Part shown: positions 43,779 to 52,800 of the stretch, in pieces | Position numbering within the stretch: position 1 is the first letter of the stretch | Layout of the letters: each line of letters opens with the position of its first letter | NCBI GenBank assembly: GCA_017525915.1 | Contig: JAFXSC010000026.1 | Location: 118,702 to 182,701, forward strand | Length of the DNA stretch: 64,000 nucleotides | Direction: 5' to 3' | Origin: Ruminococcus sp. | Lineage (GTDB): Bacteria > Bacillota > Clostridia > Oscillospirales > Ruminococcaceae | Notes under the pieces: model-generated | What the model was told of the DNA's origin: nothing | Database searches by the model: none | What the model saw: the letters and a program-made list of their open reading frames with translations, nothing else | Translations under genes and position numbers: made by a program

Positions 43779-43856
43779 TATTAGTGGAATTCTTTGCGGT
43801 ATACAGCGCGGCACAGCGCTGTCTGCCGTACTGTATGAAGGGAAGGCGGTGTGAGA

Positions 43857-44549
43857 ATGGGAAACCTCGCAGACAGGCTCATGGAAGAGCTTGAATGCCG
43901 GACAAGCTTCACTATCCCGATATTCGGAGGGATACCCGTTCCGGAATCCTGCGTGATGACATGGTTCATCATGGCGGTGCTCGTGATCGGTTCGATAATA
44001 TTCACAAAGAGAATGAAGGTCGTGCCTACGGGCTTCCAGTGCCTTGTTGAGAGCTTCGTGCTTTGGATGGATAACTTCTTCCTCGAGATACTTGGCAGCA
44101 AGGGAAAGAAATATCTTCCCATACTGGAAACTCTGCTCCTGTACATAGGTATCTCAAATATTATCGGTCTTGTCGGACTAAGGCCCCCGACAAAGGACCT
44201 CGGCGTTACCGCAACGCTGGCAATATTCGCAATACTGCTGATACAGTTCAGCGGCATACGTGAGAAGGGCGTAAAGAAATGGCTCCACAGCTTCTGTGAG
44301 CCGATGGCGTTCATGCTCCCGATAAACATTATGGAGCTCGTCATCAAGCCCCTGTCGCTGTGTATGCGACTTTTCGGAAACGTTCTCGGTGCATTCGTAA
44401 TCATGGAGCTGCTGAAGCTCGTTGTGCCGGTGGGCGTACCGCTCGTGTTCAGTTTCTACTTTGATGTTTTCGACGGCGCGATACAGGCATATGTATTCGT
44501 ATTCCTCACCTCGCTGTTCATGTCGGAGGCAATCGAGGAAGCGGAGTAG
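43857..44549 (+). CDS. atpB: ATP synthase F0 subunit a
   Basis: A 230-residue membrane subunit forming the ion half-channels next to the c ring. The essential Arg is in PLSLCMRLFGNVLGAFVIMELL, and five to six TM helices are visible. The ATG at 43857 was chosen over an in-frame GTG two codons earlier on ribosome-site spacing (GGCGGTG). No atpI precedes it. First gene of the operon atpB-E-F-HA-G-D-C. Confidence 0.94.
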   Translation: MGNLADRLMEELECRTSFTIPIFGGIPVPESCVMTWFIMAVLVIGSIIFTKRMKVVPTGFQCLVESFVLWMDNFFLEILGSKGKKYLPILETLLLYIGISNIIGLVGLRPPTKDLGVTATLAIFAILLIQFSGIREKGVKKWLHSFCEPMAFMLPINIMELVIKPLSLCMRLFGNVLGAFVIMELLKLVVPVGVPLVFSFYFDVFDGAIQAYVFVFLTSLFMSEAIEEAE

Positions 44550-44593: not shown

Positions 44594-44815
44594 ATGGGAC
44601 TTTTAGCAATTGGTGCAGGTCTTGCCGTTCTTACCGGCATAGGCGCAGGCATAGGTATAGGTATAGCGACTTCAAAGGCTGCTGAGGCTATCGCCCGTCA
44701 GCCGGAGGCAAAGGGAGACATCAACAAGGCGCTCCTTCTCGGATGTGCCCTCGCAGAGGCTACCGCTATCTACGGCTTCGTTATAGCCCTGCTCATAATC
44801 CTGCTGCTCAAATAA
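44594..44815 (+). CDS. atpE: ATP synthase F0 subunit c
   Basis: A 73-residue hairpin of two TM helices joined by the RQPEAKGD polar loop. The ion-carrying carboxylate is E55 in LAEATAIYG. Sodium-type c subunits need a Gln in helix 1 and Ser after the Glu; here the helix 1 motif is GAGIGIGIA (Ile in place of Gln) and the Glu is followed by Ala. This points to proton coupling. RBS GGAGGT. Confidence 0.95.
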
Positions 44816-44916: not shown

Positions 44917-45408
44917 ATGCTTGATATAGACATCTGGAATTTCATATGGGCGGGTATAAATCTTATACTTCTCCTGATACTTATGAAGATATTCCTGTTC
45001 AAGCCTATAAGAAAAATGATGGATAAGCGCACCCAGATGGTGCAGGACGAGCTCGATTCGGCAAAGAAGACCCGCGAGGAGGCTGAACAGCTCAGGGAGC
45101 AGTATGACAGCGAGCTCGATTCCGCGAAGGACGAGGCTCAGAAGATCATAGACAAGGCTCACGAGGACGCTGAGACCGAACGTGCCGCTATCATAAAGAG
45201 GTCGAAGGAGGAGGCGGAGCGCATCGTTGCCGACGCCGGAAAGTCCATCGAGAACGAGCGCAGACGCGTACTCGCACAGGCACAGACCCAGATCGCCGAC
45301 CTCGCTGTTGAGGCTGCTTCAAGGATCATCGGCGAAAACGTTGACGATGAGAAGAACCGCCGTCTCGTTGATAAATTTCTCACTGAGGAGGAGGGGATCG
45401 GCAGGTGA
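44917..45408 (+). CDS. atpF: ATP synthase F0 subunit b
   Basis: A 163-residue peripheral stalk subunit: one N-terminal TM helix ([20 protein letters not shown]) with the conserved KPI at its end, then a long charged coiled coil ending [23 protein letters not shown]. Its stop overlaps the start of the delta-alpha fusion gene, so the two are translationally coupled. Confidence 0.95.
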
Positions 45409-47432
45409 ACGACAGAGAAAAGCAGTTCCTCGAGGAACTGAAAGCTGCTAAGATACCTCAGGCTGATGTGGACGAAACAGCCGCCGTCCTCGGTTCATGC
45501 AGCGATATCTCCGATACTCTCGGAAATCCTCTCGTTACCCATGAGGAAAAGCGTGCGGTCATCGCAAAGCTCTTCCCGGAGAGTATGCAGAAGCCCCTCA
45601 TGAACGCTGTCCGCAGCGGTCTTGTTGAAAAGCTCCCGGAGATAATGGAACTCTATACCGACTTCCTTATTGAGCAGGAGGGAAGCATACGCGCATCCGT
45701 GCGCTATGTTACGCCCCTCACAGAGCTCCAGCAGGCTGACCTGAGAAAATTTATAATCGAAAAATTCGGAAAGAACGACGTTTCCGTAGAATATATCCGC
45801 GATCCCGATATCATCGGCGGCTTTATCCTCAATGCCGGGGATATCGAGTACGACAAGAGCTACCGCACGAGCCTCCGCGCACTTCGCGAGACACTTCACG
45901 GAAAGGCGGCAGAGCTTGCCGAAAGAGGTCAGGAAGGCACAGCGCCCTCCGGAGACATCATCTCCGTCCTCAGATCTGAGGTAAGGGACTTCGATGTGAA
46001 GTCCGGTGCTACCGAAACAGGTTTCATCGTGCGTATAGGTGACGGTATTGCTTCTGTACGCGGCATGAACTCCGTAATGTACGGCGAGCTCGTTGAGTTC
46101 GAGACCGGTATACGCGGAATCGTCCAGAACCTTGAAGAAAACTCGGTTGGCGTCGTCCTCCTCGGAGACGACCACGGTCTTACTGAGGGCTCGTCCGTTA
46201 TCCGCACCGGCAAACGTGCAGGCGTAGGCGTGAGCGATGAGCTTCTCGGCAGAGTAGTTGATGCCCTCGGCGCACCGATAGACGGTCTCGGCAGCATAAA
46301 GGCTGAGGACTACTTCCCCATTGAGCGCGAGGCTCCGGGCGTTATCGAGCGAAAGCCGGTAAACGTTCCGCTCCAGACCGGTATACTTGCAATAGATTCG
46401 ATGTTCCCGATAGGCAGAGGTCAGCGTGAGCTCATCATCGGCGACCGCCAGACCGGAAAGACCTCCATTGCCCTTGATACTATCATCAACCAGAAGGACA
46501 AGGATGTTATCTGCATCTATGTCGCTATCGGACAGAAGTCCTCGACTGTTGCACAGGTGGTCAATACCCTTAAAAAGTACGGCGCTATGGACTATTCCGT
46601 AGTTGTATGCGCCTCCGCGAGCGACCCTGCGCCGTTCCAGTACATCGCCCCCTATTCGGGCACTGCTATGGCTGAATACTTCATGTCCAAGGGCAGGGAC
46701 GTTCTCATAGTTTACGATGATCTCTCCAAGCACGCCGTTGCATACCGTGCAATGTCGCTGCTGCTCCACCGTCCGCCCGGACGTGAGGCTTACCCAGGTG
46801 ACGTATTCTACCTCCATTCGAGACTTCTCGAGCGTTCGAGCCGTCTTGACGACGAGCACGGCGGCGGCTCACTTACTGCCCTGCCGATAATCGAGACGCT
46901 TGCCGGAGACATCTCTGCGTATATCCCGACCAACGTAATATCTATCACGGACGGTCAGATATTCCTCGAGAGCGAACTTTTCAACTCCGGTCTGAGACCT
47001 GCCGTGAACTACGGACTTTCGGTATCGCGTGTCGGCGGTGCCGCCCAGACCAAGGCAATGAAGAAGGCTGCCGGAAACCTCCGTATCGACCTTGCACAGT
47101 TCAAGGAAATGGAGATATTCACGCAGTTCTCGTCCGAGCTCGACCAGGCTACGACCGATCTCCTTGCTCACGGTCATATGCTCACAGAGCTGCTGAAGCA
47201 GCCGCTCTACAATCCGCTGCCGCACTATGAGCAGGTAATACTGCTCTATGCCGCACAGCATGAGCTTTTCAAGGGCATACCGCTGAAGGAGCTCCGCGAG
47301 TACCGCACCGAGCTGATGAACTATATCCGCACCTACGGCCAGGACATCATAGAGGAGATAGAGGATAAAAAAGTGCTCACGGACGATCTTGCCGAGCGTA
47401 TCGAGCGCATCGTTACCGCATTTGAGGAATAA
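45405..47432 (+). CDS. atpHA: Fused ATP synthase delta and alpha subunits
   Basis: A single 675-residue frame. Residues ~1-175 are the delta (OSCP-like) subunit: [22 protein letters not shown], then [23 protein letters not shown] and [25 protein letters not shown]. Residues ~183-675 are a full alpha subunit: [30 protein letters not shown], the P-loop GDRQTGKT at 347-354, [11 protein letters not shown], and [15 protein letters not shown]. The linker is only about ten residues ([11 protein letters not shown]). No stop codon, frameshift, or in-frame ATG/GTG/TTG with a ribosome site lies near the junction (~45936). Normally atpH and atpA are separate genes. The fusion would tether alpha to the peripheral stalk. 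The delta part seems to lack some of the usual first helix (RYAxALF). Confidence 0.93.
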
Positions 47433-47434
47433 TT

Positions 47435-48331
47435 ATGGCTAATATAAGAGAAATACGCGAGCGTATCGGAAGTATAAAGCAGATACTGAAGATAACGAAC
47501 GCGATGTACCTCATGTCATCCTCCAAGCTGAAAAAGGCAAGGAAGTCCCTCGAGGACACCGAGCCCTACTTCTACAAATTACAGGAGACTATCGACAGTA
47601 TCCTTGAACACACCCCCCACACGAGGCAGTTCTACTTCGACCGCCGCACGGGCATCGCGGAGGAGAACCGCAAGAAGGGCTATATCGTCATTACTGCCGA
47701 CAAGGGACTCTGCGGCAGCTACAACCACAATGTCCTCCGCTTTACGGAGCAGGAGCTTGCGGCACAGTCCAACCTTGACAACTGCAAGCTTTTCGTAATG
47801 GGACAGGTCGGAAGGATCTACTTCCAGAACCGCCGCAAGGACTCCGTTGACAGCGAGTTCCTGTACACTACCCAGAACCCTACGCTCTATCGCGCTATGG
47901 AGATAGCGCAGCTCGTCATCAGCAAATTCGAGGACGGCGAGCTTGACGAGGTATATCTGATATACACCGACATGGTGAATTCAAATGTCATGGAGACAAG
48001 GAAGCTCAGGCTTCTTCCGTTTGAGCGCAGGCATTTCGGAAAAGCTCCCGACGGTACGCTGAAAAAGCTCCCGAAGGCATCGTTCCTGCCCTCTCCGGAG
48101 GTAGTAATGGAGAATATCATACCCAACTACGCGAAGGGAGTTATCTACGGCGCAATGGTCGAGGCGTTCTGCTGTGAGCAGCAGTCGCGCATGACGGCTA
48201 TGGACGCCGCCACGAACAGTGCGAAGGACATGATAAAGGAGCTTTCGCTTCTCTACAACCGCGCCCGTCAGGCTGCAATAACGCAGGAGATAACCGAGGT
48301 GTGCGGCGGCGCTCAGTCAATAAGTGATTAA
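47435..48331 (+). CDS. atpG: ATP synthase F1 subunit gamma
   Basis: A 298-residue central-stalk subunit. It starts ANIREIRERIGSIKQILKITNAMYLMSSSKLKKA, has the central GYIVITADKGLCGSYNHNV, and ends with the C-terminal helix AATNSAKDMIKELSLLYNRARQAAITQEITEVCGGAQS. The start lies three bases after the delta-alpha stop. Full length. Confidence 0.96.
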   Translation: MANIREIRERIGSIKQILKITNAMYLMSSSKLKKARKSLEDTEPYFYKLQETIDSILEHTPHTRQFYFDRRTGIAEENRKKGYIVITADKGLCGSYNHNVLRFTEQELAAQSNLDNCKLFVMGQVGRIYFQNRRKDSVDSEFLYTTQNPTLYRAMEIAQLVISKFEDGELDEVYLIYTDMVNSNVMETRKLRLLPFERRHFGKAPDGTLKKLPKASFLPSPEVVMENIIPNYAKGVIYGAMVEAFCCEQQSRMTAMDAATNSAKDMIKELSLLYNRARQAAITQEITEVCGGAQSISD

Positions 48332-48409: not shown

Positions 48410-49882
<1,473 letters not shown>

Positions 49883-49888
49883 TGCTCT

Positions 49889-50299
49889 ATGGCAAGAAGC
49901 TTTCATCTTGAAATAATCGCGACTGACCGCATTTTCTACAAGGGCGAATGCGAGCATCTTGTCGTGACAGCGATCGACGGACTTGTTGGTATAATGGCGG
50001 GGCATGAGCCTGTCGTCACAACACTTCCGACCGGCGAGCTGAAATACATGGTCGATGGCAAATGGCGGTATGCCGCAATATCAGGCGGATTTATACAGGT
50101 CATGCCGGAATCTTCGATAATCCTCGCGGATAACTGCGAGCTTCCCGAGGAGATAGACATAAAACGTGCTCAGGAAGCGCGTGAAAGGGCGCAGGAGCGC
50201 CTTCGCCAGAAGCAGAGCATCAAGGAATACTACCAGACGCAGGCGGCGCTGAACCGTGCGATAAACCGTCTGAAAGTCTCGAAGAAGCATTTTAAATAA
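49889..50299 (+). CDS. atpC: ATP synthase F1 subunit epsilon
   Basis: A 136-residue subunit with an N-terminal beta-sandwich (FHLEIIATDRIFYKGECEHLVVTAIDGLVGIMAGHEP) and a C-terminal helical hairpin (AQEARERAQERLRQKQS and on) that can inhibit ATP hydrolysis. Six bp after atpD. Last gene of the operon. Confidence 0.95.
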   Translation: MARSFHLEIIATDRIFYKGECEHLVVTAIDGLVGIMAGHEPVVTTLPTGELKYMVDGKWRYAAISGGFIQVMPESSIILADNCELPEEIDIKRAQEARERAQERLRQKQSIKEYYQTQAALNRAINRLKVSKKHFK

Positions 50300-50389: not shown

Positions 50390-50434
50390 ATTAGTAATTG
50401 TCGTAGAGACACATAAATTATAGGAGGCATGACC

Positions 50435-51817
50435 GTGAAAAAAACAGGAAAATCAACTTTCTTCATTGTCTTTGCTATCATCGCATTGTTTGCGTTTACG
50501 GCTGTTGTCGGACTCGATTCTTCGTACGGCGACAACACAAAGACCTATATCAAGGGCGTTGACGATATCAAGAAGGGTATCGACATACAGGGCGGTATAG
50601 ATATCACCTTCGAGCCTGATTACGACGGCGATGTAAGCTCATCTGAGCTCGATTCCGCAGTCCAGATCATGAAGACCAGACTCGCTACCCTTGGTATCAC
50701 TGACAATGAGGTGTACAGCGACAGCAAGAGCAACAGAATAATCGTCCGCTTCCCTACTCAGGACGATGAGGATTTCGACCCCGATGAGGCAGTATCTACT
50801 CTCGGAAGCATGGCACAGCTCGCATTCTACAAGGGCGATACCGTTGATGCGGAAAAGCTCGTCCTCACCGGTGCCGATGTTGAACACGCCGATTACGATT
50901 ACAGACAGACTGATAACCTCGGAAACAAAAAGTGGATCGTTACCCTTGAACTCAAGGACAGCGGTACCGCAGCATTTGCAGAAGCTACAAGAGAGCTTGC
51001 AGGCTCAGAGACTCCAATCTCCATATGGATGGACGAAACCAAGATCTCAGCTCCTACCGTAAACTCAGTCATCAACGACGGTTCGGCGATAATTGAAGGT
51101 AATTTCACAAGCGAATCCGCAAGAGAGCTTGCAAACCAGATAAACGGCGGTTCACTTCCCTTTGCAATGAAGGCTGTAAGTGTAAACAGGATCTCCTCTA
51201 CTCTCGGTGAGGGCTCACTCGATGCAATGGTCCTTGCAGCAGGCATCGCGTTCATATTCATCGCAATATACATGATAGTTCTTTACAGACTTCCCGGCTG
51301 TGTAGCTGTTATAGCTCTTATCGGTCAGATCGCAGGAAGCATCGCGGCTGTATCAGGCTGGTTCGGCTTCATGAGCGGTTCTACACTTACCATACCGGGT
51401 ATCGCAGGTATCATACTTGCCGTCGGTATGGGCGTTGACGCCAATATCATTACCGGCGAGCGCATAAAGGAGGAGCTCCGTTCAGGAAAGTCCCTTGATT
51501 CCGCTGTAAGGACAGCTTACAAGAGAGCGTTCTCGGCGATCCTTGACGGTAACGTTACAAACGTTATCATAGCAGTAATACTCATGGGCGCATTCGGCGT
51601 TCCCACGAGTCTCTTCTCCAGAATACTCAACAAGACTATATTCTTCGCATTCGGCGCAACTGCTGAGGGCTTCGTTTATTCCTTCGGCTTCACTCTCCTC
51701 GCCGGCGTTATCCTGAACTTCATCATGGGCGTTTTCGCTTCAAGACTCATGGTAACATCTCTCACGAAGTTCAAATGCTTCAAGAACAGAAAGCTGTACG
51801 GAGGTAAAGTGAAATGA
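50435..51817 (+). CDS. secD: Protein translocase subunit SecD
   Basis: A 460-residue RND-type membrane protein that, with SecF, uses the proton gradient to pull proteins out of the Sec channel. One N-terminal TM helix, the motif GIDIQGGIDITFEP, a periplasmic P1 domain, then five TM helices with GMGVDANIITGERIKEELRSG. A GTG start seven bases after AGGAGG fits better than the ATG six bases earlier, which nearly touches the ribosome site; either adds or drops only two residues. Overlaps secF by 4 bp. Confidence 0.95.
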   Translation: MKKTGKSTFFIVFAIIALFAFTAVVGLDSSYGDNTKTYIKGVDDIKKGIDIQGGIDITFEPDYDGDVSSSELDSAVQIMKTRLATLGITDNEVYSDSKSNRIIVRFPTQDDEDFDPDEAVSTLGSMAQLAFYKGDTVDAEKLVLTGADVEHADYDYRQTDNLGNKKWIVTLELKDSGTAAFAEATRELAGSETPISIWMDETKISAPTVNSVINDGSAIIEGNFTSESARELANQINGGSLPFAMKAVSVNRISSTLGEGSLDAMVLAAGIAFIFIAIYMIVLYRLPGCVAVIALIGQIAGSIAAVSGWFGFMSGSTLTIPGIAGIILAVGMGVDANIITGERIKEELRSGKSLDSAVRTAYKRAFSAILDGNVTNVIIAVILMGAFGVPTSLFSRILNKTIFFAFGATAEGFVYSFGFTLLAGVILNFIMGVFASRLMVTSLTKFKCFKNRKLYGGKVK

Positions 51818-52800
51818 GCGAAAAGAAGACAAGCAGCAAAAAGAAACAGCCTACTCCCGCAGTTCCCACCGGAAAGGTGTATGACTTCTGCAGCAAGAAG
51901 GCGATAATACTTGTTGTAGGTATAATCGTGCTCGCGGCGCTTATCGTAGGCATCATAATCCGCGGAGACAACCGCTCGATCGAATTCAAGGGCGGTACGA
52001 TGAAGACCTACACCTATGAAAAGGGCAACAGCATCGACAAGAGCAAGGTCAAAGAGATCGTCGGCACGCTGACAAGCTCTAAGATCACTGTAAGAGAGGG
52101 TGAGGATGCCAAGACAGGCGCTCCCCAGTTCACGATAAACCTCCGCACAGGTGATTTCGATATCGAATCCCAGAACAAGCTCACAGACCTCCTCAAGGCT
52201 GAGTATCCCGAGCACGGCATCGTTGCAAGCGACGCTACAACCGTTACCTCATCTACCGGTAATGAGTTCCTTCTCAAGTGTGTTGTCGCAGTAGTATTCG
52301 CAGCTATCATCATTATCATATATGTTGCTATCAGATTCCGCAGGATCGGCGGCTGGTCAGCAGGCGCGTGCTCCGTACTTGCCCTCCTTCAGGACATCGT
52401 TACTGCAATGGCAGTATCCTACCTGTTCGGATTTGAGTTCAGCGCAAATACAGTTGCGGTAATACTTACGATACTCGGTTACTCCATCAACAACACCATC
52501 GTTATTTACGACAGAATAAGAGAGAACCGCAAGCTCATGCAGAAGGCTTCACTCAACGAGGTTATCAATACCGGCTGCTCGCAGTCCCTCACACGTTCGA
52601 TAAGAACATCTCTCACAACTATCAGCACAATGCTCATCATTACAATAGTTGTGCTCGCAAAGGGCTATACTTCACTTCTCAGCTTCTCAGTACCGCTCAT
52701 GGCAGGACTTATCTCAGGTACCTACACTTCACTTTTCGTAGCACCTGTTACATGGTCATGGTGGAAGGGCAGAAGCAAAGCAGAACCCACAAAGGCATAA
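51814..52800 (+). CDS. secF: Protein translocase subunit SecF
   Basis: A 328-residue partner of SecD. After a Lys-rich N-terminus there is TM1 (AIILVVGIIVLAALIVGIII), the SIEFKGGT motif, a shortened P1 domain, and five further TM helices with LGYSINNTIVIYDRIREN and the TTISTMLIITIVVLAKGY block. Translationally coupled to secD. Ends at a bidirectional terminator. Confidence 0.95.
   Translation: MSEKKTSSKKKQPTPAVPTGKVYDFCSKKAIILVVGIIVLAALIVGIIIRGDNRSIEFKGGTMKTYTYEKGNSIDKSKVKEIVGTLTSSKITVREGEDAKTGAPQFTINLRTGDFDIESQNKLTDLLKAEYPEHGIVASDATTVTSSTGNEFLLKCVVAVVFAAIIIIIYVAIRFRRIGGWSAGACSVLALLQDIVTAMAVSYLFGFEFSANTVAVILTILGYSINNTIVIYDRIRENRKLMQKASLNEVINTGCSQSLTRSIRTSLTTISTMLIITIVVLAKGYTSLLSFSVPLMAGLISGTYTSLFVAPVTWSWWKGRSKAEPTKA

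Follow-up and report, generated by a model that had tools for sequence, protein, structure and literature searches.

Fusions of stator subunits in F-type ATP synthases

In F-type ATP synthases, the single δ subunit of each F1 is taken to set the number of stators, and hence of proton channels, at one per enzyme, and several peripheral stalks are present in the A- and V-type rotary ATPases. The Ruminococcus enzyme considered here would resemble the A- and V-type enzymes if more than one of its stalk positions were occupied, but its subunits are of the F type. The closest described system is an engineered FoF1 from Bacillus PS3, in which the N-domain of δ was deleted and the C-domain fused to α (Ueno et al. 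2025, PMC12229609). This δΔN-α FoF1 assembles and works. On average it has two stalks by gel, while cryo-EM shows as many as three, every stalk having its own subunit a. Its H+/ATP ratio is 5.8 as compared with 3.0, and it can synthesise ATP with roughly half of the proton motive force that is usually needed. The authors argued that the δ N-domain, which lies on the three-fold axis, restricts the number of stalks to one. They also briefly mentioned a natural δ–α protein from Acidaminococcus fermentans in which the N-domain is missing, and similar features of the UniProt entries G4Q3K6 and A0A1I2C5T3 (PMC12229609). The PDB chain 9jc1_I, which is titled delta-alpha and is presumably the engineered protein of that study, matched residues 100–669 of the protein described here in one stretch. 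Fusions of b with δ, which an earlier note on this DNA had mentioned for mycobacteria, are indeed documented in Gordonia and some mycobacteria (PMC5709465; PDB 9vkp_d). The same note was not aware of a well-described δ–α fusion; an engineered one is in print, with a short mention of natural ones (PMC12229609). No report of a full-length natural δ–α or b–δ–α chain was found in the open-access literature searched. When three fused proteins were compared with NCBIfam, the top 25 models listed for each included no fusion model, and atpA came first every time.

The window, i.e. the whole stretch of 64,000 nucleotides that was analysed, encodes a fusion which is a variant of the δ–α kind already in print, with the N-domain retained. 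As in δΔN-α FoF1, the C-terminus of δ is joined to the N-terminus of α and there is no separate δ gene, but the engineered enzyme is devoid of the N-domain whereas the window protein is natural and has kept it, as judged from a Pfam match beginning at profile position 24 and from modelled helices. The b–δ proteins are likewise stator fusions involving δ; their partner is b, whereas b is a separate gene in the window. Canonical F-type ATP synthases have the same subunit set and operon order, and the window differs from them in having δ and α in one gene.

The fusion gene and its operon

The fusion is real, one uninterrupted gene encoding δ and a complete α (Table 1), and both the open reading frame and the Pfam domains bear out the earlier description of an unbroken frame with a linker of about ten residues, the last δ helix being separated by some 10 residues from the conserved N-terminal helix of α (residue 184 onwards). 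Both domains of δ were found, with the Pfam OSCP profile (PF00213) matching residues 20–164 at 86.5 bits against a cut-off of 22.3 and covering profile positions 24–172 of 172, the first 23 positions being without a match. The full F-type α profile scored above its curated cut-off, and ATP-synt_ab_N (residues 204–269), ATP-synt_ab (326–541) and ATP-synt_ab_C (548–673) all exceeded theirs. The source genome (3.09 Mb, 67 contigs, 99.9% complete) gave one δ match and one α match, both of them the fusion gene, and no second δ or α was matched elsewhere in it. The predicted structure, a single chain and not a complex, is poor (mean pLDDT 56.1, pTM 0.35), with helices over residues 3–92 and pLDDT blocks of 76–87 up to residue 90.

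The operon order is a-c-b-[δ–α]-γ-β-ε, with every neighbour of the fusion confirmed by Pfam and subunit b encoded, as usual, by a single gene. On the 3′ side of ε, at 50429–52800, two frames resemble SecD and SecF by eye.

Table 1. Features of the ATP synthase operon, in window positions.
Feature	Position	Strand	Evidence or remark
atpB, subunit a	43851..44549	+	Pfam ATP-synt_A, 152.6 bits
atpE, subunit c	44594..44815	+	Pfam ATP-synt_C, 71 bits
atpF, subunit b; 3′ end overlaps the fusion start	44917..45408	+	Pfam ATP-synt_B, 109.5 bits
Ribosome-binding-like purine run ahead of the fusion GTG	45385..45396	+	Sequence
δ–α fusion gene	45405..47432	+	GTG start, 675 aa, no internal stop
δ part (residues 1–172)	45405..45920	+	N-domain helices (weak model), then C-domain; Pfam OSCP
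Linker (about residues 173–183)	45921..45953	+	Differs among relatives; alignment of 75 sequences
α part, complete	45954..47432	+	NCBIfam TIGR00962 atpA, 767.3 bits, cut-off 484.45, residues 183–674
α N-terminal helix region (residues 184–197)	45954..45995	+	Strongly conserved in 75 sequences; ATG, GTG and TTG absent in the window
GTG at residue 198, after ribosome-site-like GAGGTAAGG	45996..45998	+	Energy −6.9; not conserved
atpG, subunit γ	47435..48331	+	Pfam ATP-synt, 307.4 bits
atpD, subunit β	48419..49882	+	Pfam ATP-synt_ab, 253 bits; limits are those of the open frame, within which the true start may lie
atpC, subunit ε	49889..50299	+	Pfam ATP-synt_DE_N and ATP-synt_DE

Conservation within Ruminococcus

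The alignment of related genomes proposed in the earlier note indicates that the fusion is conserved. A search of the genus, with counts read off the printed table, gave a δ match in 120 of 125 genomes, and in 116 of these 120 δ was in the fused position, as judged from open-frame length. The frames were of 577–699 aa in 114 genomes, 420 aa in G033 and 545 aa in G025, where the frame lies at a contig start. A stand-alone δ was the only δ in four of the 120 genomes (180–183 aa in these) and accompanied the fusion in 11 of the 116, whereas 105 of the 120 had none. Among the best 80 of 188 confirmed loci, 79 had a fused frame of 667–694 aa; in the other, L141, the fused frame has 577 aa and the record contains 92 N. 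At the level of sequence, the frame was open across the junction in 74 relatives, which were aligned with the window to give 75 sequences; L050, too, proved to be fused, and L001 and L002, which are the window itself, were excluded from counts of relatives. Named records with the fusion include the cultured strains R. flavefaciens FD-1, 007c and ATCC 19208. A sequencing or assembly error hiding a stop and a start at the junction is refuted by the 74 open-frame relatives together with the cultured isolates, and its probability is negligible.

The R. flavefaciens FD-1 records (L150 and L151) hold two δ–α copies on separate contigs, through duplication or mixed strains, and G002, for which 6% contamination is listed, gave two equal-scoring δ–α matches. 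Another genome of the genus has a weak δ match (G061:C19:34967-35251) within a 758-aa frame that is possibly a b–δ–α chain.

Across the 75 sequences the end of δ and the N-terminal helix of α are conserved and the linker between them is not: it spans 9–24 residues (alignment columns 194–217), varies in both length and sequence, and is polar, with S, G, K, E, D, A and N as its commonest residues. A polar linker of variable length, over which the model blocks at residues 171–190 have pLDDT values of 48 and 38, could be a substrate for a host protease, with the surplus δ degraded and a normal 3:1 enzyme formed. No conserved cleavage motif was seen in the linkers of the 75 sequences, however, and cleavage alone would leave unexplained both the stronger conservation of the δ C-domain and the existence of C-domain–α fusions without an N-domain, both reported below, and this explanation is considered unlikely.

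Internal translation starts

Internal translation starts would be another source of free α, as the earlier note had envisaged, and would give an enzyme with one δ–α chain and two plain α subunits. Candidate starts were examined through a codon table and by scoring ATG, GTG and TTG, within 28 codons surrounding the expected α start, for pairing of the upstream sequence with the end of the 16S rRNA; interior windows gave the background, and separate α genes served as a positive control. None of these three codons occurs in the 28 codons of the window. Among the 74 Ruminococcus relatives, 28 had any start codon near the junction and 46 had none, and a junction start with a ribosome-like site was present in 2, compared with a background of 7.4% of 962 interior windows; the fusion's own start, in contrast, reached an anti-SD energy of at least −4 in strength in all 74 scored (one of the 75 rows was unscored). 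Because of this difference, 2 of 74 against 74 of 74, internal initiation is very unlikely, and an internal start as a conserved feature of Ruminococcus is rejected. The idea that internal initiation supplies free α is therefore unsupported in the genus; the fusion, its conservation, the puzzle of stoichiometry and the known b–δ fusions stand.

Individual codons in the window do have suitable upstream sequence, namely GTG 45996 (Table 1) and ATC 45960 (ribosome-site energy −6.6). Initiation at GTG 45996 would, however, delete the N-terminal helix of α, and a start codon at this position is present in 9 of the 75 aligned sequences, 8 of these with a ribosome-like site. In the last δ helix an ATG is common (67 of 75 sequences), but only 3 of these have a site, and the window has CTT at this position.

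When all kinds of fusion described in the next section were considered (68 loci), junction starts reached −4 or better in 19 and −6 or better in 10, which is close to the interior background of 121 fused and separate α sequences, in which 418 of 1573 windows (26.6%) reached −4 and 176 of 1573 (11.2%) reached −6; of the separate α starts serving as positive control, 50 of 53 reached −4. By kind, the −4 threshold was reached in 4 of 20 full δ–α, 14 of 39 δ C-domain–α and 0 of 8 b–δ–α junctions, and the C-domain fusions reached −6 in 8 of 39, as compared with the 11.2% background. Since the C-domain fusions outside the genus are somewhat above background, some of them may have internal starts. 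Less clear cases in this respect are L205, L215, L231 and L246, which are δ C-domain–α fusions, and L104, a full fusion.

Fusions beyond the genus and their history

Searches of the family, order, class and phylum and of 80 further loci revealed five arrangements, labelled with a custom δ profile built partly from the same loci, with Pfam as a check on ten loci and the window. In the first, δ and α are separate genes. The second, full δ–α, occurs in Ruminococcus, g31 and g45/g100, and at single loci in f22, f35 and f45. The third, a δ C-domain joined to α without the N-domain, was found at 39 loci (579–668 aa, stop to stop). The fourth consists of a b-like part (a membrane helix and coiled coil), the δ C-domain and α in a frame of 737–781 aa, with a separate b gene upstream, at eight loci (L206–L209 and L248–L251, with L250 assigned by hand on Pfam evidence); ATP-synt_B (cut-off 28) was above its cut-off in two of three tested (29.3 and 32.5) and below it in one (23.9). 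The fifth is a mini-δ, a C-domain alone in its own gene of 74–113 aa beside a separate α, at seven loci (L234–L237, L266, L272 and L273), which were relabelled accordingly and of which one was tested with Pfam. At the b–δ–α loci no ε was detected in L206, L207 and L248–L251, and L208 and L209 have a short ε.

Among loci L194–L253, 54 of 55 extended α frames (575 aa or more) carried a fused δ, L230 being the sole exception. In the order sample, 76 of 147 genomes had an α match and 25 of these 76 an α frame of at least 575 aa; 23 of the 25 were read, and a fused δ was present in all 23. In the class sample 29 of 119 α-bearing genomes had an extended frame, 17 were read and all 17 were fused, and in the phylum sample there were six extended cases among the matches listed, of which four were read and three were fused (25, 29 and 6 are visual counts from printed tables). 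In the plasmid collection, no annotated fusion appeared among the five matches listed of 559 matching records. A few loci showed other compositions: L210 has a tandem pair of δ C-domains preceding α, L108 (genome G361) a separate δ frame with two C-domain matches, and L205 a full stand-alone δ adjoining δ C-domain–α, the genomes of its genus being of 0.7–0.9 Mb. At L213:6275-8659 and L228:6425-8815, γ and β share one stop-free frame of 795–797 aa. In L213 the junction has GGAAGAG and then a GTG, which points to internal initiation rather than to a functional fusion.

A rapidly built tree of 121 α sequences with the fused parts removed, from a sample chosen to hold extended α frames, implied at least 14 changes between fused and separate states, gain not being told from loss by the tree alone. 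Mini-δ rows and L270, in which no δ was detected, were counted as separate, and L007 (a partial α) was omitted. The b–δ–α rows formed one clade. In a more careful tree of 34 rows, 11 Ruminococcus fusions formed one clade (99/96), with four separate-gene g24 rows as their nearest neighbours (100/99). A single clade of the Ruminococcus and g31 fusions was rejected (p-AU 0.00015), as was one of the Ruminococcus and g45 fusions (p-AU 0.008), these constraint tests being weakened because a first tree had already been inspected when the groups were chosen. L204, from which most of the N-domain is gone, nests inside the g31 full-length fusions (97/93), and this position suggests that loss of the N-domain came after fusion in g31. 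Arrangements of this sort are common among the Clostridia sampled, and similar fusions occur several times in related bacteria.

Constraint on the two domains of δ

Identities of the δ domains were compared between pairs at matched α identity; since the pairs share history, the values are descriptive. The fused Ruminococcus C-domains were 65% identical at an α identity of 75–85% and 79% identical at 85–97%, and the corresponding N-domain values were 39% and 55%. In the same α bins, unfused δ subunits gave 39% and 66% for the C-domain and 35% and 60% for the N-domain class-wide, and 47% (10 pairs) and 71% (43 pairs) for the C-domain and 32% and 64% for the N-domain within the genus. By these values, conservation of the C-domain is higher in the fused set than in both unfused controls, and conservation of the N-domain is similar in fused and unfused sets and slightly lower in the fused set among close pairs. 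The Pfam match begins mostly at profile positions 18–28 in fused δ, as opposed to 1–4 in the stand-alone δ of the genus, and the start of the first helix is therefore altered in the fused proteins.

Stoichiometry and the number of stalks

The puzzle pointed out in the earlier note, that α is present three times and δ once per complex, stands; the fusion gene holds the sole F-type δ found in the genome. The reading that is preferred here, with a probability of roughly 0.74, is that of a genuine single-chain δ–α protein in an F-type ATP synthase which stays uncut and would provide three δ subunits, and three potential anchors, per head. The chain would enter the enzyme uncut, in which case the α3β3 head would have three copies of δ, one per α, and the stator would probably find three docking sites on each head where there is normally one. 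To judge from the engineered enzyme, each δ C-domain would be placed next to the N-terminal helix of its own α and would offer a dock for a b dimer. The central hollow atop F1 has room for the N-domain of one δ, and those of the other two must be displaced. One, two or three of the potential stator anchors of a head might then be occupied. A likely benefit would be a stator anchor that is not losable, and a possible further benefit would be more than one stalk, each with its own subunit a, leading to a higher H+/ATP ratio and to synthesis at low proton motive force. With the sole δ of the bacterium tied to every α, the count of one δ per enzyme would be broken. Counting against this reading are the GTG at 45996 with its ribosome-site-like sequence, the poor structural model, the somewhat raised frequency of junction starts in C-domain fusions outside the genus, the stand-alone δ of some genomes of the genus, and the presence of the N-domain, which is said to limit the enzyme to one stalk (PMC12229609).

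The last point also bears on a version of the preferred reading which overlaps with it, namely that the chain is intact but the enzyme ordinary, with one δ docked, one stalk and two δ idle. Retention of an N-domain argued to restrict stalks to one (PMC12229609) and the single b gene are in agreement with such an enzyme, but the nesting of L204 inside full-length fusions and the greater conservation of the C-domain than in unfused sets are not readily accommodated by it; it is regarded as a credible outcome, if a little short of an even chance. More tentative, with the odds against it, is the suggestion that Ruminococcus has a natural multi-stalk enzyme, in which three δ–α chains would carry two or three b dimers on one rotor, a separate subunit a going with each dimer, and the H+/ATP ratio would be raised, and that this is one stage of a route taken repeatedly in Clostridia. 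If this were true, the route would lead from separate genes to full δ–α, after which the N-domain would be lost, as seen within g31; a different α lineage would have arrived at b–δ–α proteins tying each α to the membrane. The b–δ–α chains sharpen the question of stalk number, because an uncut chain would bring a membrane anchor to every α. Given culturable rumen strains and the frequency of the fusions, natural multi-stalk enzymes would be directly testable.

Other rotary ATPases and c subunits

The F-type enzyme is probably not the sole rotary ATPase of the bacterium, since its genome also matches the D subunit of V/A-type enzymes. Such a match was found in 35 of 40 Ruminococcus genomes; four of the five without it (G046, G057, G062 and G102) have a stand-alone-δ F-type gene, as do none of the other 35. 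The c subunits of the window type have a GIGIG motif and EA and look proton-type. Those of the Ruminococcus stand-alone-δ operons have an acidic residue in helix 1 and ES or ET in helix 2, which we take to resemble a sodium site. The type of c subunit follows lineage and not fusion, as the separate-gene sister loci share the window type.
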